From Cordylochernes scorpioides (Eukaryota; Arthropoda; Arachnida; Pseudoscorpiones; Chernetidae): a stretch of DNA of 64,000 nt. Positions 2,870-62,422 of this stretch are shown one piece after another. How positions within the stretch are numbered: the first letter of the stretch is position 1; each line of letters opens with the position of its first letter. The DNA is taken from the NCBI GenBank assembly GCA_030710605.1, contig CP092870.1, positions 17,708,684 through 17,772,683 of the forward strand, given 5' to 3'. A program made the position numbers and the translations under genes. The notes beneath the pieces were generated by a model, which was given only the letters and a program-made list of their open reading frames with translations, ran no database searches and was not told where the DNA came from.

Positions 2870-2893
2870 TATTTATATGTATTAATGTAATAC

Positions 2894-7802: not shown

Positions 7803-8020
7803 ACTTTTTATTTTTCCGTTCGCCATTACTCTTCATGTTTCACCTTTCCATACCTCATCCTCAAAGTTAGAAATGTCGCTATTTCTCTTTGAAAATAAAT
7901 TTCGATTTTTATAAAATAAACATTCGTGGTATAATTTCAATTTTCGTTTTACAATCATCAGCCGCGTTATATTGTATTTTAAATGTTACTTTAAGTGTTA
8001 GTTACGAGCGGAAAAATACG

Positions 8021-8093
8021 TCCAGGGTAGCCGAGTGGACAAGGCACCTGCCCGGTAAGCAGAAGGGTGTGGGTTCGATTCCCGCTCCTGGAC
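8021..8093 (+). tRNA. tRNA-like gene, anticodon GGT, unit R5
   Basis: As R1 except C66 to T, which turns the last acceptor pair into G-U. Last complete tRNA before the array ends at 8236. Confidence 0.58.
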
Positions 8094-8236
8094 ACTTTTT
8101 ATTTTTCCGTTCGCCATTACTCTTCATGTTTCACCTTTCCATACCTCATCCTCAAAGTTAGAAATGTCGCTATTTCTCTTTGAAAATAAATTTCGATTTT
8201 TATAAAATAAACATTCGTGGTATAATTTCAATTTTC

Positions 8237-8249
8237 GTAATACAGATGT
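8237..8249 (+). repeat. Right 13-bp direct repeat flanking the tRNA array
   Basis: Exact copy of 4654-4666 (gtaatacagatgt), directly after the truncated last unit. Confidence 0.85.
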
Positions 8250-8820: not shown

Positions 8821-8824
8821 AAAT

Positions 8825-8879
8825 GTCCACACTGGGCTGACGAGAGCCATTAGCCAGAAACCATAGTCTCCAAGTGGAC
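8825..8879 (+). ncRNA. Decayed type I hammerhead ribozyme
   Basis: The core reads CTGACGA (8837-8843) and GAAA (8857-8860), with a GTC cleavage triplet at 8866-8868. Stem I pairs 8833-8836 with 8869-8872 and 8825-8830 with 8874-8879 around a small internal loop. Stem III is two pairs with loop CATA, as in Penelope/retrozyme ribozymes. Stem II (8844-8856) keeps only two Watson-Crick pairs, which suggests three point mutations. Probably an old, inactive copy of a different hammerhead family from those at 26 and 42 kb. Confidence 0.5.
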
Positions 8880-8884
8880 GTTTC

Positions 8885-10090
8885 TAAGTTTGGCAAAGCT
8901 GGTGTTGTGGCTTTGTCACCAAAACGAGGTCGCTAGTTTGCGGCGACAGTCAATAGATGGCGTTTAGATTTGAGGTCTTTTTTGACGGGGGATTCGAATT
9001 TTTCTTCATAGATCAATATCCTCCCGGAAAAATTCAAAAGAGTAGACCTATTTGATATCTGTGTTGAGCTTCGCATTGTTTAAAATATTTTTAACACCTT
9101 TACTTGATAAATCACTAAAATAATTCCCCAATTACTTGAGAGAAGACAGGATTCCAGTCACCTGCTTATTGAATGTTCAATCTTCCAGAACTACAGAAAT
9201 CGATAATATATTGAACACAAGAATATGCTTATAAATAGTAAATACTCATATGATTTGGTTGAAAAAGCGTAATTTTTTAAACTATGTATTTGTATTTATT
9301 TCATTGCTAGTTCCTAGGTAGGATGTAGAATCATGCATGGTTTTAATGTATTTTCCTTTCTTTTCTTCTTTAAACTTCTAATTCCACTTAAACCTTGTAA
9401 TTCACCAATTGTTTATCTAAGGTAGTCTCTGAATTTAGTGTTGTTTCTTGACGCAAGCATCCCCTGTGTGGATATCGCGTCTGATTTGATGATAATAAAA
9501 TAAAAACTTGAGATAAAAAATATATTTTGCATCAATATATTAGAATTAGATTTTTGAAATATTTAATTGGCGTTTTAAAAGTTATATACTTATACAAATA
9601 TACATACTATAAAAAACACATCAAATATTTATGTTTACAAATAAATAAATATTTTATATTGATTACAGATAAATGGATCTTTAAATCGAACTTTAATAGT
9701 TTGTTGCACATGTAACCTCAAGTTATTATTAAATCCTAGCTGTGTTTAAATATTGATTATGAAAACATTTCGACGCTCTGTGGCTAGTTGGAAGAATTAT
9801 AAAATTCTCCTATCATAAATAGGTTAGATTCGAAATTAGCTAAAGCGGAATGAAAACCGTGTTCGCCGATTGCTACTCTGATGCATCTGTTTGAATGATT
9901 GTTCCGGTAGTTTAAGACAATTGACAATTAAAATAATTTTATTGACATCTTGTCAATACATGCAAAGTGTACAGTCTGCACTATTTAAAAGAAGATAATT
10001 ATATATATATGCATCATACTATGTACAAAGAACATGGCGCCAGCGCTGCAGAGTTTGGGGAAGAATCACCAGCGGGTCTCCAGCGACACC
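8885..10090. other. No gene recognised
   Basis: AT-rich. The frame at 9527-9715 is low-complexity Lys/Tyr/Ile codons from AT-rich DNA and is not credited. Confidence 0.5.
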
Positions 10091-15690: not shown

Positions 15691-15939
15691 TTTAAATTAT
15701 AGATAAAATTAGTTTTAAAATATATGTTCATAAATATTTAGCGATAGAAGTGTTAAAGGTTATATCTTAAATGTTGCTTAACAGGCTTCTATTTTATTAT
15801 TCCGAAAATCATCGTTCGATACATTAAACTTTAAATCAGGTGTGTATATTTTCCTAGAGGCGTTTTGTCCGTAGTTCTCTCACAATAGCCATTTACAAAT
15901 TGTAAAACAAATACAGGGCATTAAAATAAAATAAAATAA

Positions 15940-16125
15940 AAAACACATCCTGACAACGAGAACATTAACTTTTTTATATAGAAGAGAGCCATCTAGTGGG
16001 ACCAGAAATCAAATAAACGTTGATTTAGTCTGTTCTCTGATATTTGGCCAACCCATTTTCTTGATATATAAAGTTCAACCACGAACGCGTTTCGGGCTGT
16101 TGGCCCTCGTCAGCGCATACAAGTC
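15940..16125 (-). mobile_element. Hammerhead repeat, single diverged copy
   Basis: Minus-orientation copy related to the monomers at 25.94-26.61 and 41.61-42.71 kb. It shares the gagccatctag-type string, gatatttggccaacccat, and the ribozyme at its 5' end. Upstream of the ribozyme core the sequence diverges from the other copies, so it is a different subfamily or a chimera. Confidence 0.7.
16079..16120 (-). ncRNA. Type I hammerhead ribozyme
   Basis: The minus strand has CTGACGA (16113-16107), stem II GGGC/GCCC, GAAA (16093-16090), a minimal stem III within ACGCGT, and U17 before the predicted cleavage between 16084 and 16083. Core nucleotides are all conserved. Stem I is weak here, with two Watson-Crick pairs plus wobble pairs, because the 5' strand differs from that of the other copies. 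Confidence 0.65.
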
Positions 16126-24837: not shown

Positions 24838-25715
24838 GCTAAGTCATAGACGAGTTCTCCAGCCAAGTGTTTGAAAAACTTCTTAGCCAAGTGTCGGACG
24901 AGCTCTATAGCCAATTGTTGGACGAGCTTTACAGGCAAGTGTTTGAAAAACTTCTTAGCCAAGTGTCGGACGAGCTCTATAGCCAATTGTTGGACGAGCT
25001 TTACAGGCAAGTGTTGGAAAAACTTCTTAGCTAAGTGTCGGACGAGCTCTATAGCCAATTGTTGGACGAGCTTTACAGGCAAGTGTTGGAAAAACTTCTT
25101 AGCCAAGTGTCGGACGAGCTCTATAGCCAATTGTTGGACGAGCTTTGCAGGCAAGTGTTGGAAAAACTTCTTAGCCAAGTGTCGGACGAGCTCTATAGCC
25201 AAATGTTGGACGAGCTCTATAGCCAAATGTTGGACGATCTCTCCAGCCAATTGTTGGAAAAACTTCTTAGCCAAGTGTCGGACGAGCTCTATAGCCAATT
25301 ATTGGACGAGCTTTACAGCCGTGTGTTGGAAAAACTTCTTAGCCAAGTGTCGGACGAGCTCTATAGCCAAATGTTGGACGAGCTCTATAGCCAAATGTTG
25401 GACGATCTCTCCAGCCAATTGTTGGAAAAACATCTTAGCCAAGTGTCGGACGAGTTCAATAGCCAATTGTTGGACGAGCTTTACAGCCGTGTGTTGGAAA
25501 AACCTTTTAGCCAAGTGTCGGAGGAGCTCTATAGCCAATTGTTGGACGAGCTTTACAGCCGTGTGTTGGAAAAACTTCTTAGCCAAGTGTCGGACGAGCT
25601 CTAAAGACAATTGTTGGACGAACTCTCTAGCAAAGTTGTGGACGAACTCTCTAAGTGTCGGACGATATCTCTATGTGATGACGAACTCTAGCTAAGTGTC
25701 GGACAAACATTCCAG
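24838..25715 (+). repeat. 24-bp minisatellite with higher-order 72-bp organisation
   Basis: Three 24-bp monomers alternate: one ending gtcggacgagctctat, one ending ttggacgagctttac, and one ending ttggaaaaacttctta. Together they form a 72-bp higher-order unit that later varies in order. Because 24 is a multiple of three, two plus frames and one minus frame stay open for long stretches. The plus frame at 25035-25604 reads as 8-residue repeats (SQVSDELY, SQLLDELY, RQVLEKLL) that would form an amphipathic helix. An in-frame TAA at about 25030 cuts that frame. A repeat-driven ORF is the simpler explanation, but expression cannot be excluded. Confidence 0.9.
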
Positions 25716-25931: not shown

Positions 25932-25941
25932 ATATTTAAAA
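25932..25941 (+). repeat. 10-bp direct repeat, left flank of hammerhead array
   Basis: atatttaaaa, repeated at 26606-26615 just outside the other end. A likely target duplication, although short and AT-rich. Confidence 0.6.
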
Positions 25942-26605
25942 TTGAAAAACAATAGAATAAATAAAAGATAAGTGGGTCAGGTGTTGATATTAAAAATAAA
26001 AAAGGCATCTCCTGACCACGAGAACATGTGCTTTTTAGATGGCAGAGCGCCATCTAGTGGAGCAAAAATAAACTAAACGTTTATTTAGCTTGCTCCGTGA
26101 TATTTGGCCAACCCAATTTCTTGATTTATCAAGAAAAGCCATCCACGAATATCACGGAGCAAGCTAAATAAACGTTTAGTTTATTTTTGCTCCACTAGAT
26201 GGCGCTCTGCCATCTAAAAAGCACATGTGCTCGTGGTCAGGAGATGCCTTTTTTATTTTTAATATCAACACCTGCCCCACTTATCTTTTATTTTTGCTAT
26301 TGTTTTTTCATGTGTTAAGCGTCTTTACGCAAATTTGGCCTTAAATACCCATTTTCTGATTTCTCGGGAAGCCATTGGGACCAACATTTTGGTCGCAGTG
26401 GTTACAGCCTACTCCACGCTGACGAGCGCCAACAGCGCGAAACGCGTTCCTGGATGGCTTTTCTTGATTTATCAAGAAATTGGGTTGGCCAAATATCACG
26501 GAGCAAGCTAAATAAACGTTTAGTTTTTTTTTGCTCCACTATATGGCGCTCTGCCATCTAAAAAGCACATGTGCTCGTGGTCAGGAGATGCCTTCTTTAT
26601 TTTTA
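25942..26605. mobile_element. Hammerhead repeat array, head-to-head
   Basis: A minus-orientation partial monomer (25942-26147) is joined to about 1.3 monomers in plus orientation (26148-26605, period 344 bp). Both point outwards. Read on its own strand, the minus copy starts at the base that follows the predicted ribozyme cleavage site (cgtggatgg; an aa shared with the other copy leaves 2 bp of ambiguity). Monomers share gcgccatctagtgg-type and ttgggttggccaaatatc strings with the array at 41.61-42.71 kb. No protein is encoded. Small hammerhead-bearing tandem repeats of this size are known in animals as retrozymes and in the terminal repeats of Penelope-like elements. Confidence 0.85.
26406..26459 (+). 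ncRNA. Type I hammerhead ribozyme
   Basis: Core CTGACGA at 26419-26425. Stem II is GCGC (26426-26429) with GCGC (26435-26438) around CAACA, and GAAA is at 26439-26442. A minimal stem III lies in ACGCGT, with U17 at 26448. Stem I pairs 26413-26418 with 26449-26454, with one C-C mismatch, and 26406-26409 with 26456-26459. All catalytic core bases are present. The triplet is GUU, which is allowed but not the most active. Confidence 0.8.
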
Positions 26606-30883: not shown

Positions 30884-31816
30884 ATGGAATTAAATCAGGA
30901 TCCCATAGGCGTAAAGTCAGACGGTCCGACGGAAACAATGGAAAGAAGGCAAGAAGTAAGAGAGAACGAAACGACAAGAGAAAGACAGGAGATGACCGAC
31001 CGAGAGACAACTGCGCCCCTAGCGGACGCCGTCAACCAGCTGTCAATGTTCCTGGCCCGGGCAAAAATTTCTGATGGAGCGGAATCGGCGATCTCGCCCT
31101 TCGACGGCACATACAGCGCGACACAGTTTTTCCAGACGTTCGACCGAAAAATGGAAGACGCATCCATGGGAGAACAAGAAAAATTACTGCGCCTACCAAA
31201 CTACCTGGTGCGACAACCCCTGGAACTCTTCAGGAAACTTCGGCTGGCCGACCGGAGTTATTTCCAGGTGAGACAAATCCTCCTAGATCTCTATCCTGAG
31301 TCAAGCGAAGCGTCCTTTGCGAAATATTTCGCCATGAAACTCACGGGACAAGCCAACTTAGAGACCTACTACCGGGAAAAAACCGCCATGGGATTGCAAC
31401 TAGGACTTCCACAAGAGGTGATCCTCGAGACGCTGACAGAAGGACTGCCATTCAACGACCAGCGCCTAGTCCGCGTAGTGCCTCCCGAGAACCTAGGAGA
31501 GTGGTTCCGACTGGTACAGCGGATCCACGGGCCCAGTGTACCGGCAACGCGATCCAGAGAAGATCAACCACCCACAATGTCGGGTCCGTACCACAGCACA
31601 TCCCGACGCCCAGGTGCATGGAATGCACCTCTTCCGCCGTCCAACTGCAAGTTCTGCGGCGCGAGACACTGGCACAGCGAATGCCGACGTCGACCAATCC
31701 CGACGACCCACGAAAAAGTCCGGACAGTGCAAACAGTCCCAAAATCACCAGTTCCGACTTCATCACAACCAAGTCAAGCCAGAGACACCTCAGCCGGACA
31801 GCCCTTTCGAGACTGA
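30884..31816 (+). CDS. gag: Gypsy-1 Gag
   Basis: The frame opens at an ATG in the LTR (30767). I chose the ATG at 30884, just after the primer-binding region, giving 310 residues. The N-terminal 60 residues are charged. The middle (from ISPFDGTYSATQFFQTFDRK onward) resembles the capsid region of gypsy Gag. Near the C-terminus CKFCGARHWHSEC is a zinc-knuckle-like cluster with irregular spacing. Gag would form the virus-like particle and bind genomic RNA. It overlaps the pol frame by about 280 nt; pol lies in the +1 frame relative to gag, so expression of Pol likely uses a frameshift near the gag end. Confidence 0.88.
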   Translation: MELNQDPIGVKSDGPTETMERRQEVRENETTRERQEMTDRETTAPLADAVNQLSMFLARAKISDGAESAISPFDGTYSATQFFQTFDRKMEDASMGEQEKLLRLPNYLVRQPLELFRKLRLADRSYFQVRQILLDLYPESSEASFAKYFAMKLTGQANLETYYREKTAMGLQLGLPQEVILETLTEGLPFNDQRLVRVVPPENLGEWFRLVQRIHGPSVPATRSREDQPPTMSGPYHSTSRRPGAWNAPLPPSNCKFCGARHWHSECRRRPIPTTHEKVRTVQTVPKSPVPTSSQPSQARDTSAGQPFRD

Positions 31817-34800
31817 GGTAGGATCCCTAAACCAACTGACTGTCAAACTTTTTCTAACCCCTAATGTATCATGCCCCTTTTTAATTGATACAGGCGCCAG
31901 CCTGAGTATAGTGCCATATAATATTTATCATAGGCTAAAAACCCACCTGCCTAATTTAACCCTTGAGGGACATTCACTACAACTCCAAACCCTAAACGGA
32001 TTTGCAAAAACCATGGGTAAACTATCTATCCCACTGACAATAGGACAAATATCACGAAAGGAGTATTTCCATGTAGTGAATGCACCATTACCATTCGGAA
32101 TTCTTAGTATCAATAGCCTCCATAAATTCAGATTAACCATAGATTTTAATAAATGCACTATACTCCAGCTGGGCGCCCCATTGTCTACCCTTTCCTACCA
32201 TTTTAATCATGTGTCCAATGTATGCACGTACTGGCAGTGTCAGGCGATGTCACAAAAAATTTTCCCCACATCCCAACTTTCCGCCTATGACAACCATTGC
32301 GTGCATTCATTGAGAAAACCCCACTTATCTACATGCCCCTTTTTCACTAAAGCCAATTGCCCTTTTTACATGCCCTCAAATAATCAAACCACAACAACTT
32401 CAACTTATGAACCTGCCCAAAACGCACCCACACAGCGGGACAACTCGCATACCAAAAACATAGGTGATCACACACCGTTGCACAACTCTCACATGACCAA
32501 CCCACACAACGAACTCGACACTCACACTAATACACAACAAAACCCTTTACCACATGCATACTACAACACAACACCTAACACTCATTATACACCACAGTTC
32601 ACAACACTTCTACAAAGGTACACTCACATTTTTTCACAGGACAAATTCAACGTACCATGCTTACGGATTCCACCAGTAAAAATACCCACGAATTCCGAAA
32701 AAATAATCACCATACGTCCATATCGTGTTCCGATATGTGACCAACAAGAAATCCGTAACCAAATACAACAAATGCTGGAGAACGGCATCATAGAGCAATC
32801 TTTTTCACCTTTCTCGAGCCCTGTCACCCTCGTCACTAAGCGCGACAAAACCAAACGGTTTTGTATCGATTATAGGAAGGTGAATGAGCTAATCAGCTCT
32901 GATGTCCATCCCCTCCCGAGAATCGAGGATATCCTAGACCGCCTCGCACAGGCCAAATATTTTTCCACGGCCGACATATCCTCTGCGTATTGGCAAGTCC
33001 CAATACACCCCGATTCTCGACCACTGTTAGCATTTGCCACCTTTGAAGGATTATACCAACCCACTCGATTACCTTTCGGGTTAAAAACCAGTCCTCAGAT
33101 TTACGAACGAGCCATAAGTCAGGTCCTACAGAGACACGGACTTGACTGTGTGGCACATTACTTTGATGATTTCATCATTTACTCCAACACATTGGAGGAA
33201 CATCAAAACCACCTGCGACAATTTTTCGCCTTTTGCGAAGCGGAGAAGTTACAACTTAACTTCGCAAAATGCGAATTTTTTAAGCAATCCATAAATTTTC
33301 TAGGGTACACCATCACAGCTGGTACAATTACACCACTTACACGCAATACCGACATCATCCACGCCATAAAACAACCACACAACCGAAAAACACTACAATC
33401 CTTCTTAGGCGCTGTGAACGTCTATAACAAATTCATTCCGGAATACGCTCGCTTGCGAGCACCACTCAACAATCTCCTCAAAAAGGACGTCGTGTGGAAC
33501 TGGAATGAAGCTTGTCAAGAGGCGTTCATTGACCTGAAAGGAAACCTCACACAACACCCCATTTTACACCTTTACAAAGAAGGTCTGCCATGCCAAGTGT
33601 ATTGCGATGCATCCACCCTCGGTATAGCAGGCATTCTCAAACAAGTTCACCCTGACGGAAACGTATACCCAGTTCAATATTTCAGCCGAACATTGCGCCC
33701 ACACGAGAAAAACTACTCCATCTCTGAACTTGAGTGCTTAGCAATCGTTGAGAGTGTGGAGAAGTTTCGCATCTATCTTATGGGCAGAAAATTTACTATA
33801 TTTTCTGACCATCACGCATTACAGTGGTTGAAAACCATCAAGAACCCGTCCGGCAGACTGTTTCGATGGAGTTTACGACTATCGAGTTACGAATATGAGG
33901 TCCGCTACATAAAGGGAAAACTACAATATGAAGCAGATCTCTTGTCCCGTAACCCGTTTTGTGGATTCTTGGACGCCACCCTTATCAGGACCCACCAATC
34001 TCCTCCATCGAAAGAGTCTAGTTTGACCATTGATCATAATGGATTACATACAGTTTCCCGAAAAGGTGTAACCAAGATTATACTTCCAAAACCACTCATA
34101 CAACAACTCTTACAAACAGTACACACACAATACAATCACCCCGGTATTTCCCAAATGTCACGAATTATCTCCACACAATATTACTGGCAAGGTATGTCAA
34201 AAGATATTAAACAAAAAGTTAAGACCTGTCCCACCTGCCAATTAACAAAACGTCCAGTAGGACCCACTTACGGAGAATTAAGTCAACCTCCGGAATCTAA
34301 AGAACCCTTCGACCTCTTATCTCTGGACACCATAGCAGGATTTGCCAAATATGGCAACACCAAGATATACCTCCATGTGGTAGTCGATCATTTTTCACGC
34401 TACGCGTGGGCTTTTCCATCTAAATCCACCAGTACCACCACCTACCAACAGGTACTTAAGCGAGTATTCCAGGATGGTTCTCCAAAACGCCTTCTTACGG
34501 ATAGAGCCCCTGCCTTCACTTCACCCAAATTTCGTAGTTTCCTACTTAATAGAAATATTCACCCATTGCTCACAACCAGCAACAATCCACAGGCCAACGG
34601 TCTATGTGAACGCCTGAACGCCACCCTCACGGGAAAACTGAGGTTATTACACCTAGAAAATCCTAAGGTCGCGTGGACCAAGTTGGTCAAGAAGGTTACA
34701 CTTATATATAACAAGACACCCCACTCTACCACAGGTTTTCCACCCATATACTTAATGTTTGGTATCCTACCCCCAGAAATCTCTAATCATAACACACCGT

Positions 34801-35780
34801 ACCCAGATATCGACAAAGCTAGAAAAATTGCACACACACGCACACAAAACAAACATTTACAAGACAAAAACACTTATGACCAACGACACAAGCAACCACA
34901 TTTCGAAGTAGGTGATCTAGTGTTAGTAAAATTATATCACCACCCAAATACAGGGAAACTTGCGCCATATTTCACAGGACCTCACACAATATTAGAAATT
35001 ATTTCACCAAATGTGGTCCGCATAGATCGACCAAATCAACCACTTCAAAGAGACACTGACACAATCCACGTCAACAAACTTAAACTGTATACAGAAAAAA
35101 TCCATTATATATCACCACCCGCCGTTAACACCTATCATATAAAACACAACCCCAATTACACGTTCCCTTTCAAACATTTAACACCCGAATTATTCCCAAC
35201 AGAGTCATTAAGGTTCAAACCCACCAGCAGCGAACCTTTCAGGCATTTAGACCCTGCCATTTTTGCAACAAGACGATTTACATCACTCTTCCCCGACGTT
35301 AAAAACTGCAAACCTGACAACCAGCTCAATCATATCACACCACTCCCTAAAGATATCAAACAGGAGAACTGCGAACCTACCAATCATTCAAATTCTACAA
35401 TTCATAAGGTTCAAGCAAATATTTCAGAGTCCCCAGTTACAAAAATATGGACGAACATGGGACAATATCCTATATTTCATCTGATTTTCATCCTTTGTTT
35501 GTTACTTCTGCCATACAACTGTATTCCAATTTTATTCATCAATTACTTGTTTATCTATACCATGCCCGCTCGTAAAATCTTCGAACTACAAGAGGTAGTT
35601 TTTAATTTAGGACAAGCATTTTTTAATTTTGGACAAACAGTTTTTCATTGTGGACAAGCAATTCTTCATTGTGGACAAGCAATTCTTCATTGTGGACAAG
35701 TATTTATGAAACTTCTCATAATTTTAGGAACCATCTTCGCAGAAAATTTAAATAAACTCCGAAGAGATAGCAATAACTGA
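31536..35780 (+). CDS. pol: Gypsy-1 Pol polyprotein with C-terminal membrane and repeat extension
   Basis: Uninterrupted frame of 1414 codons; the first roughly 90 overlap gag and the Met at 31536 is probably not used. Protease motif FLIDTGAS near residue 117. RT spans about 370-640, with the YFDD catalytic motif near 541. RNase H spans about 680-800, with CDAS. Integrase has the HHCC finger (HTQYNHPG to CPTCQ, 860-900) and the DDE triad near 929, 988 and 1025, followed by a GPY/F-like YFTGPHTI near 1146. Beyond the integrase about 230 further residues follow. They include a strongly hydrophobic segment (about 1308-1340) and then 8-residue repeats ending in GQ (FNLGQ, FNFGQ, FHCGQ, LHCGQ). 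Such a tail is not usual for Pol. It could be an env-like or membrane-anchoring extension. Confidence 0.93.
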   Translation: MYRQRDPEKINHPQCRVRTTAHPDAQVHGMHLFRRPTASSAARDTGTANADVDQSRRPTKKSGQCKQSQNHQFRLHHNQVKPETPQPDSPFETEVGSLNQLTVKLFLTPNVSCPFLIDTGASLSIVPYNIYHRLKTHLPNLTLEGHSLQLQTLNGFAKTMGKLSIPLTIGQISRKEYFHVVNAPLPFGILSINSLHKFRLTIDFNKCTILQLGAPLSTLSYHFNHVSNVCTYWQCQAMSQKIFPTSQLSAYDNHCVHSLRKPHLSTCPFFTKANCPFYMPSNNQTTTTSTYEPAQNAPTQRDNSHTKNIGDHTPLHNSHMTNPHNELDTHTNTQQNPLPHAYYNTTPNTHYTPQFTTLLQRYTHIFSQDKFNVPCLRIPPVKIPTNSEKIITIRPYRVPICDQQEIRNQIQQMLENGIIEQSFSPFSSPVTLVTKRDKTKRFCIDYRKVNELISSDVHPLPRIEDILDRLAQAKYFSTADISSAYWQVPIHPDSRPLLAFATFEGLYQPTRLPFGLKTSPQIYERAISQVLQRHGLDCVAHYFDDFIIYSNTLEEHQNHLRQFFAFCEAEKLQLNFAKCEFFKQSINFLGYTITAGTITPLTRNTDIIHAIKQPHNRKTLQSFLGAVNVYNKFIPEYARLRAPLNNLLKKDVVWNWNEACQEAFIDLKGNLTQHPILHLYKEGLPCQVYCDASTLGIAGILKQVHPDGNVYPVQYFSRTLRPHEKNYSISELECLAIVESVEKFRIYLMGRKFTIFSDHHALQWLKTIKNPSGRLFRWSLRLSSYEYEVRYIKGKLQYEADLLSRNPFCGFLDATLIRTHQSPPSKESSLTIDHNGLHTVSRKGVTKIILPKPLIQQLLQTVHTQYNHPGISQMSRIISTQYYWQGMSKDIKQKVKTCPTCQLTKRPVGPTYGELSQPPESKEPFDLLSLDTIAGFAKYGNTKIYLHVVVDHFSRYAWAFPSKSTSTTTYQQVLKRVFQDGSPKRLLTDRAPAFTSPKFRSFLLNRNIHPLLTTSNNPQANGLCERLNATLTGKLRLLHLENPKVAWTKLVKKVTLIYNKTPHSTTGFPPIYLMFGILPPEISNHNTPYPDIDKARKIAHTRTQNKHLQDKNTYDQRHKQPHFEVGDLVLVKLYHHPNTGKLAPYFTGPHTILEIISPNVVRIDRPNQPLQRDTDTIHVNKLKLYTEKIHYISPPAVNTYHIKHNPNYTFPFKHLTPELFPTESLRFKPTSSEPFRHLDPAIFATRRFTSLFPDVKNCKPDNQLNHITPLPKDIKQENCEPTNHSNSTIHKVQANISESPVTKIWTNMGQYPIFHLIFILCLLLLPYNCIPILFINYLFIYTMPARKIFELQEVVFNLGQAFFNFGQTVFHCGQAILHCGQAILHCGQVFMKLLIILGTIFAENLNKLRRDSNN

Positions 35781-41199: not shown

Positions 41200-41600
41200 C
41201 TGGGGTTGATTAATAGATTAATTAAAAAATAATACTCAGTAAGTAGAGAATGGAATTTTGCTATTTTCTCTCCTATACAGTACCTTATACGTCTATAGCT
41301 GGAACAAGCCTCAACATTCTGTATTTGTAATTGCTCCACGTCAATTGTCAAATCCATTGTTTTATAACTGTGTTGCATATATCCATGAATCTGACACACA
41401 TATATATATGGACAATCATATCACTCGTGGTGAGGCTGCTAGAGTGAAAAATGATGATGAAACAACTCGGAAAGGACCGGATATTCAACAATTTCAACGG
41501 TATTTAGTATTTCAATCTGTATTCTAAAGGTTAAAAACATGAATAAAATCGCCAAATATTCAGTTTTTTCGTTTATTTAAAAAAACAGTGTATCTCACTA
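41200..41600. other. No gene recognised
   Basis: AT-rich flank. The frames on both strands (41142-41399 and 41258-41527) show no motif. Confidence 0.45.
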
Positions 41601-41757
41601 TATATATATATATATATAAAAAATGGCATATCCTGACCAGGAGCACATGTGCTTTACAGAAGGCAGAGCGCCATCTGGTGGAACAGAAATCAACTAAACA
41701 TTGATTTAGCCTGTTCCCTGATATTTGGCCAACCCAATTTCTTGATAAATCAAGAAA

Positions 41758-41811
41758 AGCCATCCACGAACGCGTTTCGCGCTTTTGGCGCTCGTCAGCG
41801 TGGAGTAGGCT
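41758..41811 (-). ncRNA. Type I hammerhead ribozyme, left arm
   Basis: Identical in core to the copy at 42115-42168, read on the minus strand: CTGACGA at 41798-41792, GAAA at 41778-41775, and cleavage predicted between 41769 and 41768. Confidence 0.85.
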
Positions 41812-42114
41812 GAACCATTGCGACCAAAAAATATTTTTTGGTCCCAATGGCTTCCCGAAAAATCAAGAAATGGGTATTTATGGCCAAACTTGCGTAAATA
41901 CGCTTAGCACATTAAAAAACGAAAGAAAAAAATAAAAGATAAAAAGATCAGGTGTTGAAATCAATATAAAAAATGGCATATCCTGACCAGGAGCACATGT
42001 GCTTTACAGAAGGCAGAGCGCCATCTGGTGGAATCAGTTTGGCCATAAATACCCATTTCTTGATTTTTCGGGAAGCCATTGGGACCAAAAAATATTTTTT
42101 GGTCGCAATGGTTC

Positions 42115-42168
42115 AGCCTACTCCACGCTGACGAGCGCCAAAAGCGCGAAACGCGTTCGTGGATGGCT
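42115..42168 (+). ncRNA. Type I hammerhead ribozyme, monomer 1
   Basis: Stem I is TCCACG (42122-42127) with CGTGGA (42158-42163), extended by AGCC (42115-42118) with GGCT (42165-42168) across an internal loop. Core CTGACGA is at 42128-42134. Stem II is GCGC/GCGC around CAAAA, and GAAA is at 42148-42151. Stem III has two pairs within ACGCGT. U17 is at 42157, so cleavage falls between 42157 and 42158. Every catalytic core position is conserved. The very short stem III suggests that cleavage may be best in a dimeric context, as known for Penelope and newt ribozymes. Confidence 0.88.
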
Positions 42169-42464
42169 TTTCTTGATTTATCAAGAAATTGGGTTGGCCA
42201 AATATCAGGGAACAGGCTAAATCAATGTTTAGTTGATTTCTGTTCCACCAGATGGCGCTCTGCCTTCTGTAAAGCACATGTGCTCCTGGTCAGGATATGC
42301 CATTTTTTATATTGATTTCAACACCTGATCTTTTTATCTTTTATTTTTTTCTTTCGTTTTTTAATGTGCTAAGCGTATTTACGCAAGTTTGGCCATAAAT
42401 ACCCATTTCTTGATTTTTCGGGAAGCCATTGGGACCAAAAAATATTTTTTGGTCGCAATGGTTC

Positions 42465-42518
42465 AGCCTACTCCACGCTGACGAGCGCCAAAAGCGCGAA
42501 ACGCGTTCGTGGATGGCT
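42465..42518 (+). ncRNA. Type I hammerhead ribozyme, monomer 2
   Basis: Exact repeat of monomer 1, 350 bp downstream. A transcript through both would release a 350-nt RNA. Confidence 0.88.
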
Positions 42519-42707
42519 TTTCTTGATTTATCAAGAAATTGGGTTGGCCAAATATCAGGGAACAGGCTAAATCAATGTTTAGTTGATTTCTGTTCCACCA
42601 GATGGCGCTCTGCCTTCTGTAAAGCACATGTGCTCCTGGTCAGGATATGCCATTTTTTATATTGATTTCAACACCTGATCTTTTTATCTTTTATTTTTTT
42701 CTTTCGT

Positions 42708-42742
<35 letters not shown>

Positions 42743-42748
<6 letters not shown>

Positions 42749-43235
42749 ATATTTTGAGTTAGATAGATCACAACCTTCTTCTAATATTTATTATAACCCC
42801 ATATCTATATAAAATTATGTATCGACCTTGTAACAATGGAAGTGACAAATAAAACAAAAAGGTAAAGGTAGTCTAGACGGGGACAAAGGCCAGACGTGAT
42901 AAAACAACCCGGCGCCTGACAGGTGGCGTGATTTTACAGGAACCAATCGTCCAATACGGGCGTCCAATATAAAAGCCCCCCAAAATGGGACTAAAGTAGT
43001 TGTTTTCAGAGTGACGCCGTTATACGGTCGGTCGGGACTCTCACCCCCCTTCTATCCGCAGGTAGGCTAGGGCATCTGTGGCGCCCGTGGTTCGACTACC
43101 TTCGTCCGTGGTCTACCTCTACCTCTTGGAGTGACCATCTAGACCTGCCTCTGTCTCTTGCTGTCCCAGTGCGGGAATCCCATCACGCACCCACTACCAC
43201 GACTGCCCAATACATTCCACGTCGGATTTACTACA
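42743..43235 (+). repeat. LARD 5' LTR
   Basis: From tgtagtatattttgag to cggatttactaca. GC-rich second half. The gaacccgttaaagtcgacag string that follows is the primer-binding region. Confidence 0.88.
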
Positions 43236-49864: not shown

Positions 49865-51017
49865 ATGTTCTATTTGAAAGCCCTTTTGTTTATTTACAGA
49901 ACGGCACCTGATTTTCCACGATAGCAGACACTTTCTGATCATGGTCATACTCAAAAGATCCCATTCTTCCTTTACCACTTTCCAGAGCTAATCTTACCTA
50001 TTTCGACATAATTAAAATATGCAAACAAGATGATATCAACATTTCTAAAAGAGATATTTATAATATCATTCACGACAAAAATATCAAGTTTTTATTCAAA
50101 GCACCTACGGAGAAATGGGCAAAAGATTATCACCCTATATCTCTGAGAACTCCTGAAACTGTCAAAAAAGTGAAAAAATATAATACAAAAGAAAATCCTA
50201 TGCCACAAAGAGATATAGCCAAATTAATAGGAACATCAGTGTCAACAATAAATAAAATAATAAATAAAGATTTAGGACTGAAAGCTACAAAAAACATGCA
50301 GTTCACAAATTGTTTCAGAGCCATATTCGTCAGCGACACACTATCAGCAGATATTTTTATGAAAATTTCTTGGCTGCTGATAGATGGAAATTTATTGTTA
50401 CATATGACGAAGCATGGGTATATTTAACCGATTGCGACAGAAAAAGAGCTATATACTATCAAAAAAGGGTGGAAAAAATCTAGGCCAAATTGGTTGAAGG
50501 AATGTGCCGAAAGTTACCCCAAAGGATTTATGGTGGCATGCGGTATATCATATGAAGGAAAATTAAAAATAAGAATAAAAAAAGTCGAAATAAGGGCCAA
50601 AATAAACTCGGAGTACTATCAAAACAACATTTTAGAACCTATATTTTCGAATGATATTCCCTCTATCTATGGAAAACAGAGCAACAAAGTCTGGTTTCAC
50701 CTTGATAACGCCACAAGTCATACCTCATCTTCAACCCAAGCTTATTTAGAAGATCTAAGGCAAAGAACAGGAATCAACACTATTCCAAAGAACAGAACCC
50801 CTGTAAATTCTCCTGATTTAGCCCCGATGGATTTTTGCATTTTGGATGCCTTAAAAGACCACTTGGAAAGAGACACCCTAGGACAATTGAAGGTCTCTGG
50901 AAAGTGGTAAAGGAAGAATGGGATCTTTTGAGTATGGCCATGATCAGAAAGTTTCTGCTATCGTGGAAAATCAGGTGCCGTTCTGTAAATAAACAAAAAG
51001 GCTTTCAAATAGAACAT
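49865..51017 (+). mobile_element. Tc1/mariner-type element with long terminal inverted repeats
   Basis: 49865-49987 and 50895-51017 are reverse complements over about 123 bp with few mismatches. The right arm is also the C-terminal coding part of the transposase, so the left arm looks like an inverted duplicate of coding sequence. The element encodes one broken transposase. A target duplication was not established. Confidence 0.75.
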
Positions 51018-52417: not shown

Positions 52418-52471
52418 TAAATTGGCGACGAGAATTTGAAAATATAACTGTAGCCCTAAAAAAAAACAAGT

Positions 52472-53752
52472 ATGGCAGCCAACCTGACGCCACCGTTACC
52501 CTTGAATATAAATGCTAGCAATTTATTTGCGGAATATAAGCAATGGATGGAATCCTATGCCATTTTTGAAATAGCATCTGGAATTTCAAAAAAATCGGAT
52601 GAAATTAAGAGAGCAACTCTATTGCATTGTTTAGGGCCAAATGTACAGCGTATATTTTTCAACTTGCCAGATGAAAAGGAAAATTATGAACAAACTAAAA
52701 TGGCTTTAGATAAATATTTCACACCTCATAAAAATGTGGTCACTGAGAGATTTAAATTTAGACAAAGAGTCCAGAAAGATGATGAATCGATCGACAACTA
52801 CCTAATTTCTTTAAGAGAGCTTTCTAAATCTTGTGAATTTGGGAATTTAGAAGCTGATATGATAAGAGACCAAATAATTGAAAAATGTAACAACAAAAAA
52901 CTTAAAGAAAAATTGTTGCAACAAGAAAATTTGACACTGTCAAAAACCATTGATATTGCTAGAATGTTAGAAATTTCTAGAAAAGAAATTAGACTACTTG
53001 AACCTCAAAATGATCAAACACTAAATAGAGTTCAAAATAAACCTAAAAAGCACTATAATGCTAATAATTTCAACAAAGGTAGATTCACTAATCAAGGTAC
53101 CCCATCATTTTCAGGTGCCTCAAAGCCTAAATGTTATCGCTGTGGATTAGATACACATTCAGCACAAGAATGTAGTGCTAAAAAAATGACTTGTTCATAT
53201 TGCAATAAATTAGGACATCTTTTCAGAGCTTGCAGGAACCGCCCAAATCAAAATAATAATAGAAACCACAAAAGTTTCAATCAAACTAAAGTTAAGACCA
53301 TACAAGAAGAAAATAAGACTGAAGTAGGTGAAAGTTCAGATGAATATACCTACTATACAGGTGCTGAAAATAAAGAAAAAGTGCAAATAGATGGTAGTGA
53401 AATAAATATGATAATTGATACAGGGAGTGATAGAACTTTCATAAGCTATAATAAGATGCTTGAATTATATGACCATAAATTTATGCCAAAATTACATGAC
53501 ACCACCCGAACCTTTTTTGCCTATGGTCAAGATAGACCTCTTCCATGTTATGGTTATTTCAATGCTGTGATTTCTTGGAAAGAAAATTCAATTTCAGAAG
53601 AAATTTATGTGATTGATAAAAAAGTTGAATCTTTGTTGGGAGGCAAGGCTAGTTTTGAACTAGGTATAATTAAAAGGGTAAATCATGTAAATGAATCAAT
53701 GTCTACTAATATAGAAACTCTTGTTCAAGAACATGAACATCTTTTCCATTGA
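52472..53752 (+). CDS. gag: Gypsy-2 Gag-protease
   Basis: 426 codons from the ATG at 52472, 55 nt after the LTR. The first 180 residues form the capsid-like region. Two canonical CX2CX4HX4C zinc knuckles lie near residues 220-255 (CYRCGLDTHSAQEC and CSYCNKLGHLFRAC). The aspartic protease motif MIIDTGSDRTF is near residue 312. The frame ends at a TGA (53750-53752). The same frame resumes immediately downstream with RT, so the stop may be either a nonsense mutation or a genuine stop between Gag-Pro and Pol. Similar short-LTR gypsy elements usually encode one polyprotein, which favours mutation. Confidence 0.88.
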   Translation: MAANLTPPLPLNINASNLFAEYKQWMESYAIFEIASGISKKSDEIKRATLLHCLGPNVQRIFFNLPDEKENYEQTKMALDKYFTPHKNVVTERFKFRQRVQKDDESIDNYLISLRELSKSCEFGNLEADMIRDQIIEKCNNKKLKEKLLQQENLTLSKTIDIARMLEISRKEIRLLEPQNDQTLNRVQNKPKKHYNANNFNKGRFTNQGTPSFSGASKPKCYRCGLDTHSAQECSAKKMTCSYCNKLGHLFRACRNRPNQNNNRNHKSFNQTKVKTIQEENKTEVGESSDEYTYYTGAENKEKVQIDGSEINMIIDTGSDRTFISYNKMLELYDHKFMPKLHDTTRTFFAYGQDRPLPCYGYFNAVISWKENSISEEIYVIDKKVESLLGGKASFELGIIKRVNHVNESMSTNIETLVQEHEHLFH

Positions 53753-56648
53753 CTTGGAGCTATAAAAGGCTATAGTCATAAAGTGACATTGAAAGACAAC
53801 TATAGGCCCATTGCCCAGAGATGCCGTCGTATACCTTATGCAATGGTAGAAGCAGTAAATCAAGAGCTTGATAAGATGCTAGAGAATGGAATCATTGAAG
53901 AAGTGCATCAAGGTTCTGAATGGGTTTCTAACATAATAGTTGTTCCAAAAAGGGATAGTGAGGAAATTAGACTATGCATAGACCTTCGGGAAGTGAATAA
54001 AGCAATATTGAGAGAAAGACATCCAATTCCTACAATTGACAATATGTTACATGCCCTTAAAGGTGCTAAAGTATTTGCAAAGCTGGATGCAAAAAAAGGG
54101 TTTTGGCAGGTTGACTTAGACCCTCAATCAAGACCCCTTACAACTTTCATCACGCACCGTGGTTGTTACAGATTTTGTAAAGTTCCTTTTGGTCTATCAA
54201 GTGCTCCAGAGGCATATCAGAAAGGAATGGATTCAATTTTGCTTGATTTGAAAGGTGTAATTTGTTACTTGGACGATGTCGTAGTTTACGCCAAAGATAG
54301 ACAAGAACTAGAAGAAAGGCTTAGAAAAGTCTTACAAAGATTTGATAAAGTAGGCATTAGGCTCAACAGGAATAAGTGCAAATTTGCCATGGAAGAATTG
54401 GATATTTTAGGTCACATTGTTAGTAGTGAAGGTATTAAACCTGATAATAGGAAAATAGAAGCAGTCTTAAATTTTCCAATACCAAAAAATATTGAGATGT
54501 TGAGGTCATTCTTAGGAACTTGTGGGTTTTTAAGAAAATTCATACCTAATTTTTCTAAATTGGCAGAACCTCTAAATAATTTGACTAGAAAAAAATGTTA
54601 GGTGGAATTGGGATTTGAAAACAAATAAAGCATTTCAGGATCTTAAAGAGTCACTAACAAAAGAGCCATGCTTAGCATATTACAACTTGAACTCACCAAC
54701 TGAATTAATCACAGATGCAAGCCCTATTGGTCTTGGAGCAGTATTAATACAAACACAACAAAATGGCATTAAAAGACCCATTGCATATGCCAGCAGATCC
54801 TTAACTGATACTGAAAAAGATATTCACAAATAGAAAAAGAGACATTGGGATGTGTATGGGCAATTGAACATTTTAACACCTATATTTGGGGAAGGAAATT
54901 TGTTTTAAAAACAGATCACAAACCTCTAATCTATATGCTGAATCCTAAAAATGGAGCTGTTTTGCCTCCAAGAATTCAAAGATTGAGCTGGAGATTACAA
55001 CCATATATATGACTTTGAAATTGAATTCATTCAAGGAAAGCAAAATATTGCAGATATATTTTCAAGACAACCTCTTTCTAACACAAGTGATGAAAAATGG
55101 CTGGAGGACTATGTTCATAAAGTCTTATCCATCATTTCTGAAGAGCTTCAAGCACTGTCTTTGAAAGAGATAAAAGTTTGTACAGAGCAAGATCCTTTGT
55201 TTCAAAAACTGAAAGATATGGTTCAAAAGGGAGTTTGGCCATATCCTTTGAATGAAGAATTCAAATGTTTTTATAAGTTTAAAGATGAACTCTCAATTTT
55301 TGATAATCTTATCTTAAAAGGAAGTAGAATTTTGCTACCTTCAAAACTAATAAAGAGAGTCTTGAGAATTGCACATGAAACACATCAAGGAATGACAAGA
55401 ACCAAACAACTGTTAAGAGAAAACTATTTTTGGATAAACATGGACTTTGACATTGAAAATTTGATAAGAAACTGTCCAATTTGTGTAAGGAATCAACCAT
55501 TGATAAATGATCAACCATTGCAAATAGTTCCGTTACCATCAAAACCTTGGATGAAACTTGGAATTGACATAGTTGGTCCAATTGGCCATCATTATGTTTT
55601 AACAGTGATCGACTACTATTCTTCATATCCTGAAGCAATGATAATAGAAGACATTTCCAGCAAGACAATTATTAAAAAATTAATGGAGAATTTTGCAAGA
55701 CATGGTTATCCACATGAAGTTGTAACAGATAATGGCTTACAGTTTGTAAGTACATCAATGGAAAGATTTTTAAAAGAATGTGGAATCAAGCACATCAAAG
55801 CCTCACCCTATTACCCAAAAAGTAATGGGAAGATAGAAAGATTCCATAGATTTCCAAAGAAACAATTCAATTCAAGTTCTGAAGAAGGGAAAGATTGGAA
55901 AGAAGATTTATCCAGAATTTTAATGTCTTACCGAACTACTCCAAACAGATCTACAGGAAAGACTCCAGCATTCCTATTATTTTCAAGAGAAATCAAAACT
56001 AAATTAAGCTCACTTGTTAATGATGCAGAAGAAGATGAATCCAACATCAAAGAATTCAATATGGTCTACAAAGAAAAAAGGAAAACATATAATGATATAA
56101 TTCGGAAAGCTAGTCCTCATAATTTTGAAATTGGAAATTTAGTTTATGTGGCAAATCCAAATAATGGAAAACTTGATTCAAATTTCAGATCAGAACATCA
56201 TGTCATTCTTGAAAACACTTCAATAAATTCTTTTAAATTAGTCAACACTAAAAATGGGAAAATAATTCATAGAAATGCTAAACATTTGAAACATGTTCCT
56301 ACTCAAGAGACCAATCAAGGCATTTCTGACTTGATTCCAGAAGAGAGCCAGGAAAATCTTAGTTCAGATTCGACAAGAATTGAACACCTCAACTCTTCTG
56401 ATGTACAAATACCAGATGATAATTCCTCAAACCAAGACAAGGACACTTCTTTAAACCGACCAAGTTCAAGTAGAACAGGGTCTACATTTAACCCAGTTGT
56501 TTCAGATAGACTTGATGCCGAGGCTCTTCACCAGTTGCCACCAGAGGTTTCTCCACCCTTGCCGACTACCAAGGAACCCGTGATCACCAGGAGTGGAAGA
56601 GTCGTCAAGCCATCATCAAGATATAAAGACATGATTCCTTTCATCTAA
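53753..56648 (+). pseudogene. pol: Gypsy-2 Pol (RT-RNase H-integrase), broken
   Basis: RT in the gag frame (53783-54601) has [16 protein letters not shown] and the catalytic YLDD (about 54268-54280). A shift at a poly-A tract near 54590 separates RNase H (54615-54833, with TDASPIGLGAVL). Further shifts lie near 54830 and 55005. Integrase is intact from 55161 to 56648: HHCC finger (HETHQGMTRTK to CPICVRNQ), then D in LGIDIVGPIG, D in TDNGLQF and E in GKIERFHRF. The long Ser/Asp-rich C-terminus ends in TRSGRVVKPSSRYKDMI. Three shifts in an element with near-identical LTRs is surprising. Confidence 0.9.
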
Positions 56649-58949: not shown

Positions 58950-61660
58950 TCCCCTTAATCAGATTTCAAATGTCCCTCATACCCAGTAGATATTTGAAGA
59001 TTCGTTTAACTGCTTCCCAGTCATATATTGTTAGTGCTGCAAGTTTTTGAGAAACTTTATTCAGTGCAAAAGTGATATCGGGTCTTGTTAAGCAGCTCAG
59101 ATGCATCAGACTACCAATCGCTAACGAAAGGGAACATTTTCTAGAATCTCTGCTTCTCCAGGAACAGTAGAATTATCAGTTGGTGTTCCCACTTTATTCG
59201 CTTGAGACATATTGAATTTCTCAAGAATTCTTTTTATATATGCCTTTTGATTTATAAAGATTGACCCATCCGGTTGGCGCTCTATCTCAATACCCAAAAA
59301 GTAATTTAATGGTTCACTTGTGATCTTAAATGAAAACATTAGTTCATCAAGAAATTCTTTGATTTCCTGTTCATTTGTACCAGCAATGATTCCACCATCA
59401 CCATATATGGCAATAATGAGTATTTGATCATTTGTTTTTCTGAAGAATAAACAGGGGTCAGCTGTACTTTCCTTCAGACATCTTTCTTTCATGAAGTTGA
59501 CTATTTTCTGATTCCATCATCTTGGTGACTGTTTAAGTCCATAGAGACTTTTCTTCAAAATTCATACAAGATCTGTTCCATTGTTGAATCCTTCAGGTTG
59601 TTCGATATAAATTTGATCTTGTAAATCTCCATATAGAAAGGCTGTCTTTATGTCAAACTGTACCAATTTTAAGTCTTCATTAGCAGCAATTGCTAAAAAA
59701 GTTCTTATGGTGTCATGTCTTGCCACAGGACTAAATGTTTCTTCATAATCTATACCCTTCTTTTGTACAAACCCTTCTGCCACCAGTCTTGCCTTATATC
59801 TTGTAATCTCTCCTTTATAATTCAATTTGGTGTTTAATACTCATTTACAATAAATTGGTTTTTGGCCAGGTGGTAATGTTGTGCATTCGTATACATCATT
59901 TTCGGTTAAAGAATTCATTTCTTCATTCATTGCTTCTTTCCAAAACTGTGCATTTGGAGAATCCATTGCTTCTTTGTATGTCTTGGGTTCAATACCTTCT
60001 GCAATATTTATTTCAGCATCAATATACCTTTGAGGTTTTGATATATTTGATCGATCTCTTAAATTGTATACGTCGTCTGATGTTTGAACATTGCTTTCAA
60101 TTTTCTCAATATCTTGAGTATCATTTTGTTCATTAATCTGATTATTTGAAAGTTCCTTATTTCTCTTTTCAATATCAAGGCTAAATGTTGGTATAGTTTC
60201 CTTGAAAATTACATACCTACTTGTGACAACTTTGTTTGAGTTCGGCATCCAGATTCGATACCCATCCTTGTTTCTGCAATAACCAACTAAAATCCCTTTT
60301 TCGCTTTTGGCATCTAACTTTCTTCTCTTTTCATCAGGCACGTGAACAAAACATTCAGTTCCGAATATTCGAAGATGATCAACTGCTGGTTTTTTTATCA
60401 AACCATAGTTCATAAGGTGTCTTTCCCTCAATTTGTGTTGGTCCTGTTCTATTCAAAACATATGTAGCAGTGTTAACTGCCTCTGCCCAAATATTTAGGC
60501 GCATATTTTTGGCATATATCATTGAACGAGCTGCTTCTATTAAAGTCCTGTTTTCCCTTTCCGCTGAACCATTCTGTTGTGGAGTATATGGCATTGTGAT
60601 CCTATGATTAATACCATACTTGTTTGTAATTTTTGAGGTTTCTTTATTTACAAACTCCTTTCCTCCATCTGTGAGAATTTCTTTCACTATATGTCCAGTA
60701 GTCTTTGTTTCCAAGATAAATTGTTCTAGCTTTTCAATGACTTGTGGCTTTTATTTTAGGAAATACACAGATCGGTATTTTGTAAAATCATCTTTGAAAC
60801 ACACAAAGTATCTCATCCCTCCTTTCGAAACCTCCTGCATAGGGCCACATACATCTACATGAATTAAGTTTCCAGGTTGGGTAGAAGCATATTGTTCTCT
60901 TGATCCAAAACTCAGTCTATGTTGTTTGCCATAAATGCATGCCTAGCAAGGTTCATTGTCCTTGACTGCATCTATTCCTTGTGCTTTAAGCCATTTTTGA
61001 ACATGTCTTTTATTTTGATGTCCAAATCTTTCATGCCATAGTTGTAGCATATTGACATTTTGGGTTTTGGCTAAATTGACTTCTGCAGCATTTTCAGGTT
61101 TGATACTTGTTATTAACATACCATACAAGCCTCCTGGTAGTCTTTTTCCTTCTACAATAACTTCTCCAGTTGTTGTCTTAAAAGGTTTACAACTTTTTTT
61201 TATCCATTTTAATTTCAAACCCTTTATTCAATGTGGACTGTAATGACATCACATTACGACTGAAATTGGGAACATACCATACATCAGTTAGGTAGTGAGT
61301 TTGCCATTTACCTTTTACACAAGTTTCAATTGTTATAGTTCCACGTCTATAAGCTATCAATTTTTCATTACTTCCAACTTTAACAGTCTGTTGGGTAGGA
61401 AAATCCTTATAAGAAGTATAAAAACTTGCATTTCTTGTAATGTGGTTAGTAGCTCCTGAGTCACCAATCCAAATGTCTTCATCTTGTTCATTGAATCTTT
61501 CACTGATGAAACTTTCACTTAATTTTGAATTAAGTTTTAATTTAGTTTCATCATTTTCTTTATCCTTTAGTTTCTTCTGTTCTGCATACCTACAATCTTT
61601 GGCCAAGTGTCATTTTCTATGACAAAAGTAACATTCTCTTGTTTCTCTTGTTTTCTGAAA
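58950..61660 (-). pseudogene. pol: Copia protease-integrase-RT, broken, RNase H absent
   Basis: From right to left on the minus strand. A CCHC zinc knuckle near 61650-61590 has a TGA in place of one residue. The protease motif IGDSGATNHIT follows. The GAG-pre-integrase HHCC region has WHERFGHQNKRH. Integrase carries HVDVCGPM, TDGGKEFVN and PQQNGSAERENRT. RT has YKARLVAEGFVQKKGIDY and TAFLYGDLQDQIYI. The usual catalytic YVDD reads YGDG (about 59410-59400), losing the second Asp. The sequence stops at KRIFKYLLGMRD, just before RNase H, and the polypurine tract follows within about 30 nt. Several stops and shifts occur. Confidence 0.92.
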
Positions 61661-61819
61661 TTTTTCATTACTTTTGGTAACCTTTCCTTTCATATTTTGC
61701 TTATTTTCATATGCATTTGCCATTAGTGCTGTCGAACTTGATATGCTGTATTCATCTCGCTGTTGAATTCTTATTTCGAGTAACCGAAGCCTTTGTGTGA
61801 GATTGTCTACAGAACGTTC

Positions 61820-62365
61820 TTATTTAGACACTGATTCCCAAACACTTTTAAAGGATGTGGATTCAGGCAATTTTAGATTTTCTTGTTTAGTAAGTTCATT
61901 TTGCATATCATTCCATAAACTTTCTAGTTTTGAAATGTGCTTTGAAATATCATCTGCAGGATCCTTCTTAAAATTAAAGAATTGATTATAGAGCATGTCT
62001 AATCTTTGACCAGAACTTTGCTCATAGACACTTAACAATTTGTCCCACATATCTTTAGCACTTGAGCAGGGAATGATTAGTTGACTTACATCAGGCATCA
62101 CACTTGTTGTAAATAACAATTGGGATATTGCATCTTCACTTTCCCATTTTACATATGCCTCTTTTTCTTCATTTGTTTCTTGTTTTATTGGCTTTCTATA
62201 TGTTCCATCAACAACGCCTATTACTTTGTTTATTGTTAAAAGCAATTTTATATTTTTCTTATATTCTGGCCAGTTTATTAATCTTTCCAATTTGGGAATA
62301 TTCATACCCATTTTAATATTATCCATTCCAGCCATTACTAATATAAATTTCAACGTGATAAACAA
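61820..62365 (-). pseudogene. gag: Copia Gag (UBN2-type) remnant
   Basis: 181 codons from about 62365. The ATG giving MAGMDNIKM (12 codons in) is the likely start. The capsid region is typical of copia Gag: LINWPEYKKNIKLLLT, a DMWDKLLSVYEQSS motif, and FNFKKDPADDISKHISKLE. The frame ends at 61820, and the link to the zinc knuckle is broken by shifts. Confidence 0.85.
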
Positions 62366-62422
62366 AATAGAATTCTTTTTAGGCTTACCGTTGCTTCGTT
62401 TTTATTATATTTCGCAGTGAAT

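Follow-up and report, generated by a model that had tools for sequence, protein, structure and literature searches.

Metazoan retrozymes lacking long terminal repeats (LTRs) are described as tandem repeats of a 170-400-nt unit that carries a type I hammerhead ribozyme, contains no open reading frame (ORF), has a GC content below 50%, shows duplications of more than 4 bp when these are present, folds as a self-paired circle, and is abundant in animals as RNA circles (PMC7229834). Papers on animal retrozymes leave the mobilizing machinery open and name Penelope-like elements (PLEs) as likely helpers, with no integration signature given in the text seen (PMC7229834, PMC7761336). PLEs encode a reverse transcriptase (RT) and a GIY-YIG endonuclease, and endonuclease-bearing PLEs have been found in animals (PMC3846280). 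The PLE protein of Anolis (PAc), from a locus that also contains a hammerhead, cuts and extends both target strands in vitro and starts at two adjacent internal sites, the interval between which is the PLE tail; overall, the strands were not seen to differ in start site, and sharing of sites within an insertion is not stated there (PMC11167929). Penelope copies of the rotifer Adineta form inverted repeats, mostly head-to-head, with an optional tail on one of them and duplications of 8-10 bp (PMC3846280). The 64,000-nt stretch of the pseudoscorpion Cordylochernes scorpioides analyzed here (contig CP092870.1; hereafter "the window") contains at 41614-42715 a hammerhead array that shares features with both systems. 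Judged from its sequence and that of its relatives, this array is very probably a non-autonomous retrozyme mobilized by a PLE protein, with one RNA primed from both cut target strands at different sites.

The array comprises one inverted and one direct block of 350-nt units with 100% identity, set in (TA)n; the reverse complement of 42243-42662 equals 41614-42033 exactly, and 42036-42365 is identical to 42386-42715. Its parts are the following, in window coordinates:

41614-42033, minus strand: inverted left arm, 420 nt, with its outer end at unit position 277 (start site A)
42036-42715, plus strand: direct right arm, 680 nt or 1.94 units of 350 nt, with its outer end at unit position 330 (site B)
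42034-42035, no strand: arm junction, two extra bases (TC) that are part of neither arm
41599-41618, no strand: (TA)n left target flank
42714-42752, no strand: (AT)n right target flank
42112-42168, plus strand: type I hammerhead of the first plus copy, stem III palindrome ACGCGT, predicted cut between 42157 and 42158
42462-42518, plus strand: type I hammerhead of the second plus copy, predicted cut between 42507 and 42508
41758-41814, minus strand: hammerhead of the inverted arm, predicted cut between 41769 and 41768

An earlier note on this DNA had described 350-bp monomers, tandem in the right arm and inverted in the left, each with a complete type I hammerhead core and none with an ORF, and all of this is borne out. 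Zero-mismatch cores lie at 41774-41798 (minus), 42128-42152 (plus) and 42478-42502 (plus), and the window holds two further related cores with 1 and 3 mismatches, when none is expected from 100 dinucleotide shuffles. Each unit contains CTGACGA, stem II GCGC/GCGC, GAAA, the palindromic stem III ACGCGT and an internal loop within stem I; the cut that the note had placed between 42157 and 42158 agrees with the hammerhead motif, the predicted position falling directly after GTT. The unit has a GC content of 40% and includes palindromic stretches. No stop-to-stop frame of at least 120 aa overlaps the array, and frames spanning units reach 168 aa in related copies. Rfam Hammerhead_HH9 scores 31.3 bits on each of the three cores (E 1.5e-5 in a 1.4-kb search) and does not reach its gathering score of 52, so that a scan of the window at gathering thresholds lists no hammerhead. 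The Rfam matches to MIR5048 and MIR2655 over the array are most likely due to the long inverted repeat rather than to microRNAs.

The putative hammerhead helices are supported by divergent copies. In an alignment of twelve such copies, chosen by hand from families with an ACGCGT-like stem III and excluding the ACCATGGT family and chance matches, 91.1% of helix cells pair, against a shuffle mean of 84.7; 11 cells are changed on both sides (shuffle mean 4.3, with 0 of 500 shuffles as high), and the covariation score is 0.249, compared with 0.021-0.054 when the strands are slid. Stem II C-G is replaced by G-C in six of the twelve copies, paired changes also occur in outer stem I and stem III, and four pairs show a change on both sides, a number equalled by 16 of 500 shuffles; the count of further pair types in this alignment is not above that of shuffles (291/500 as high). 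Linear folds of single hammerheads are unexceptional (z -1.02 and -1.5). As a circle, the 350-nt unit is predicted to adopt a rod-like fold of -116 kcal/mol, where shuffled sequences average -76.4 (z -7.6, 0/100), which is compatible with a circular RNA.

Several traits expected of a metazoan retrozyme are therefore combined in this family: an intact type I hammerhead core, albeit with HH9 below its gathering score; a tandem unit in the range of ~150-450 nt, counted as free of ORF, LTR and primer-binding site (PBS), with PBS and polypurine tract not searched for; and dispersed copies with duplications of more than 4 bp. By this anatomy (hammerhead covariation, unit, GC content, no long ORF, duplications in relatives and rod-like fold), the earlier note's reading of a retrozyme-like array of putatively self-cleaving monomers is supported, whereas its view that the inverted layout is "not usual" does not hold here. 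Genome copies, the counting of which had been proposed as a check, number 4037 for the exact 30-nt core pattern on both strands of the 2.62-Gb genome of 24 contigs (1974 + 2063; the reversed-pattern control gives 0 and 0). The first 100 core places listed, all on contig C1, include 12 clusters of mixed orientation, counted by eye, as were all such clusters and opposite-strand pairs below, among the rows listed. All 12 run minus-then-plus, and none is plus-then-minus or tail-to-tail; two of them (C1:83683398 and C1:83698284) share one spacing and may be duplicates of each other. Inverted head-to-head copies are known in PLEs (PMC3846280), and the available text of PMC7229834 presents metazoan retrozymes as tandem repeats with no mention of "head-to-head", in contrast to the inverted arms and two-site end rule found here. 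The core pattern has no match in viral_contigs or genome_contigs, and the unit none in phages, collections from which records of this or near genomes may have been excluded. This genome-wide recurrence of the inverted layout was overlooked by the earlier note, as were two older copies in the window:

25941-26603: older copy, 81-88% alike, with an inverted left arm ending at B and a direct right arm ending at A; core at 26419-26443
15929-16115, minus strand: older single-armed related copy, 79% alike; core at 16089-16113

A regular pattern is seen in the outer ends of the arrays. Fifty-three loci were examined, namely the first 20 loci of contig C1 in order of position (L031-L050), 28 best matches including the window's own (L001-L005, L007, L008, L010, L051-L070) and five picked for holding both orientations (L073-L077); 40 are two-armed, and 13 are one-armed, incomplete or composite. 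The earlier note had raised the possibility that the unit belongs to a larger coding transposon; none of the 53 gave a sign of this, their flanks not having been searched systematically for one. Array ends cluster at two positions of the unit, 53 nt apart: A (~277, range 271-282) and B (~330, range 326-337). In 37 of the 40 two-armed loci, both outer ends lie at A or B, and 36 of these 37 have one of each, the left arm ending at A in 17 and at B in 19. The position-ordered sample has A/B pairs in 10/10 two-armed loci (the other 10 are one-armed), and the loci picked for both orientations in 3/5. One-armed loci end at A in six cases and at B in seven; since the two sites are used about equally, random pairing would yield A/B in about half of the loci, and 36/37 against even odds has a binomial probability of 3e-10. 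The older window array at 25941-26603 is likewise B/A and stands outside this count.

Two adjacent RT start sites with a tail on one arm (36/37, with one end elsewhere in three further loci), together with inverted arms, constitute the published PLE signature (PMC11167929, PMC3846280) and thus point to PLE machinery; the alternation of the ends suggests that a PLE-type retrotransposon copied one RNA from two starts at once. The use of one of each site per insertion and of one RNA for both arms is not stated in PMC11167929 or in the available text of PMC3846280, and no description of the one-of-each rule, of inverted retrozymes or of a tRNA-bearing family moved by PLEs was found among the titles and abstracts listed, in which most subscription journals are not covered.

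Target sites are consistent with the same machinery, for which AT-rich targets (PMC11167929, PMC3846280) and short duplications are characteristic. Any duplication around the window array is masked by its (TA)n flanks. Among 35 two-armed loci, 20 are not flanked by (TA)n on both sides by the rule applied, and 16 of these 20 share a border stretch of at least 8 nt (mean 10.5 over the 20), compared with a permuted share of 15% on average and 37% at most; some of the shared stretches are AT-only. Duplications are clear in L008, L033, L056, L060, L064 and L066, and short ones are apparent by eye in the one-armed L045 and L049. One duplication encloses both arms together. This bears on the proposal that a tandem satellite was made palindromic by inverted duplication at the DNA level, for which one might cite the identity between arms seen in the window array and in 14 of the 28 loci compared, and the spacing of an array at C1:19822053 (see below), which implies that some later DNA-level expansion may occur. 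As a general mechanism, it is extremely unlikely: it is contradicted by duplications around both arms, and it accords poorly with outer ends at two fixed sites, one each, with thousands of dispersed copies and with the lack of tail-to-tail arrangements among 12 and 8 mixed clusters in the places listed for this family and the tRNA-bearing family described below.

The two arms of a locus also share their variants. L057 has one pair of changes in 14/14 units and in no other aligned unit, and L032 a distinctive set in 5/5 units, some members of which recur in other loci (both among 16 selected loci). In 28 of the 31 loci tabulated, at least 60 unit positions are common to both arms; within these 28, the arms differ by 1.28% on average, compared with 2.91% for 870 between-locus arm pairs (0/20000 permutations as low), they are identical in 14, and in 18 no other locus's right arm is nearer than the locus's own. 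At 11 polymorphic sites, arms of the same locus agree in 202/210 comparisons and arms of different loci in 3504/6025 (58%); the best of 5000 permutations reaches 0.79, and 0/5000 are as high. In 63 of 80 arm differences, one base is seen at that position in no other locus, as expected of later mutation; this does not apply to the remaining 17. Because the arms of one locus share variants, it appears that one RNA served both. The alternative that two one-armed insertions entered the same AT-rich target independently is contradicted for most loci by this sharing, and the single duplication around both arms and the absence of plus-then-minus clusters in the places listed also argue against it. 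AT repeats do receive more than one insertion (older copies lie within or beside L052, L057, L069 and L075), and L074 may be a case of this kind; as an account of the family, it is scarcely credible.

We propose that a PLE protein generated such arrays in the following manner. The unit would be transcribed, and the hammerhead would yield a unit-length RNA, probably closed into a circle. At an AT-rich target, a PLE enzyme would make cuts in the two strands ~8-15 nt apart, to judge from the duplications, and both freed 3' ends would prime cDNA on the same RNA, as the variants common to the arms suggest, one cDNA starting at A and the other at B, 53 nt away. Synthesis of both cDNAs would proceed with the same polarity on the RNA, for up to several laps, and the two would then be joined head to head, often via a few matching or a few extra bases, leaving an inverted and a direct arm; one-armed insertions may result when just one strand is extended. 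At the junctions of the 31 loci tabulated, the arms overlap by 0-9 nt or are separated by 1-11 inserted nt, apart from 38 nt in L066. Part of that 38-nt insert (L066 2180-2217) is a short stretch of unit sequence, A-ended, that looks like the capture of a third start. The inner ends (n=62) are spread over the whole unit, and their fullest 9-nt window is unexceptional, being reached in 15% of simulations; six of the 62 lie at 119-127, a window around the cut site in which 1.6 would be expected (window-specific p 0.005), a weak clustering. Arm lengths are just loosely correlated (Spearman 0.36, p 0.048, n=31).

If the inverted arm arose by self-priming on an antisense template, a mechanism put forward for rotifer PLEs (PMC3846280), a head-to-head layout and shared variants would also be expected, and palindromic stretches exist in the unit. 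However, this route leaves the different start sites of the two outer ends and the spread of junctions over the whole unit unexplained, and cutting and extension of both strands have been demonstrated in vitro for a PLE (PMC11167929); we regard it as improbable. In L1 twin priming, both target strands prime on a single RNA, which results in a head-to-head inversion, and LINE-like RT frames (long interspersed nuclear elements) are visible by eye in the frame list of the window at 2891-4521. Mobilization by a LINE in this manner is nevertheless very improbable: twin priming starts at a poly(A) tail and is not known to involve a fixed second site or multi-lap arms, whereas here two internal sites are fixed, with no sign of poly(A) or of a single start at a 3' end. 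In addition, the tail signature has been termed unique to PLEs (PMC11167929).

A variant that retains the PLE route, with a long linear multimer transcribed from an existing array as template in place of a circle, would be indistinguishable in its DNA products. It could draw on the use of unprocessed RNA by the PLE protein in vitro (PMC11167929) and on the tRNA-bearing family, whose arrays are as long and in which no ribozyme is known; the excess of inner ends near the cut site hints weakly at occasional use of linear cut RNA. On the other hand, an intact hammerhead with covariation would cut multimers, the circle fold is rod-like, and animal retrozymes are abundant as circles (PMC7229834), none of which is decisive; a linear template seems rather unlikely. 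A trimeric circle, which had been considered from a period-3 pattern of unit lengths in L057, was dropped; alignment of the units shows mostly single-unit changes. An extra T occurs in two left-arm units of L057 three apart and is absent from its right arm.

Some observations do not fit mobilization by a PLE protein from a single RNA with one start at each site. L074 has two B-like ends (326 and 337) and no clear duplication; one outer end lies at neither site in L007 (176), L068 (149) and L073 (17); and the arms of L067 lie ~230 nt apart, with no duplication around them. For 10 of the 28 loci compared, an arm of another locus is nearer than the second arm of the same locus, mostly via later private changes. 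With 53 nt, the tail exceeds the 30-40 bp reported for PLEs; that of the tRNA family is ~31 nt. No autonomous PLE was linked to the retrozyme by a shared start-site sequence, and in the one PLE-like fragment read (P0001), Pfam reports an RT and no GIY-YIG domain, the latter having been recognized by eye. The array itself holds no ORF with RT and GIY-YIG endonuclease, so the retrozyme is not itself a PLE. Candidate sources of the protein are found elsewhere in the genome, which is rich in PLE-like frames: GIY-YIG frames have at least 146 matches (150 scored of 17015 loose candidates), and the RT frame from L034 has at least 110 (from 62118 loose candidates, of which 108 were scored); open frames of 786-789 aa are present in five of the latter. 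Among the matches listed, opposite-strand neighbors less than 5 kb apart run minus-then-plus in 11/11 cases for GIY-YIG and 6/6 for RT.

A second family in the window, with a 291-nt unit that bears a tRNA-like gene, builds arrays of the same form:

4663-6646, minus strand: tRNA-bearing 291-nt array, inverted left arm, outer end at unit position 256
6648-8244, plus strand: tRNA-bearing 291-nt array, direct right arm, outer end at unit position 225
4654-4666: target-site duplication GTAATACAGATGT, left copy, 13 nt
8237-8249: target-site duplication GTAATACAGATGT, right copy, 13 nt

There are 11 tRNA calls in 4663-8244, one tRNA-like gene per unit. An exact 34-mer of the tRNA part has 4710 genome copies (2450 + 2260; control 0 and 0), and the unit has at least 196 matches (381 candidates, of which 40 were scored). 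In the first 100 of the 34-mer places listed, mixed clusters run minus-then-plus in 8/8 cases, with no tail-to-tail. Five further loci, selected because both ends were visible among the matches, have end pairs of 223/256, 223/255, 229/254, 246/224 and 260/225 and share border stretches of 12-15 nt; with the window array, one of each end and a duplication are found in 6/6 loci read. The locus C3:122626403 (ends 256/213 in the match table alone) stands outside this count, as do other tabulated loci, whose sequence appears to stop 50 nt beyond a match. The unit has a short T-rich similarity alone to the hammerhead unit, a Rfam scan with E values up to 10 names no ribozyme in it, folding as a circle is less pronounced (z -2.3), and the fold around its two ends is unexceptional (z +1.4). 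As this family makes the same arrays with no recognized ribozyme, tandem head-to-head insertion seems not to need a known one. It shares with tRNA-derived short interspersed nuclear elements a tRNA-like head, thousands of copies and duplications, and differs from them in its tandem head-to-head arrays with two alternative ends. One large array, G000:C1:19822053-19831012, carries the exact 34-mer 8 times in inverted and 22 times in direct orientation, for the most part 292 nt apart; its left arm shows a repeating 292/298/292 spacing that is missing from the right arm.

It is tempting to speculate, although we hold this to be somewhat less probable than its converse, that PLE insertion of small RNAs is a paired reaction on one RNA with an obligate A/B pair of arms, and that the classic tail is the A-B offset. 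Such a reaction may be exploited by two unrelated RNA parasites, the hammerhead retrozyme and the tRNA family, in which the tRNA takes the place of the ribozyme ~150 nt upstream of the first start site and is possibly cut by host tRNA-processing enzymes; the latter would be a new class of ribozyme-less retrozyme-like element. One RNA, two start sites and two strands would give a simple account of both the PLE tail and the inverted repeats, and the tRNA family suggests that the hammerhead is one of several ways into this route. The end rule, which here points to PLEs, is a DNA-level test applicable to any genome.

A third hammerhead family with a different palindromic stem III (ACCATGGT in L032) is present in degenerate form at 8821-8890 of the window (core 8837-8861), and also on the minus strand of L032 near 6099 and of L005 near 2693 (reverse-complement coordinates). 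A 72-nt repeat array with long frames on both strands (24849-25621) adjoins the older retrozyme copy at 25941-26603. The frame list of the window, read by eye, further contains Ty3-type retrotransposon frames at 31497-35780 and 52460-56648, mariner-like frames at 49939-50910 and copia-like frames at 59121-62401.
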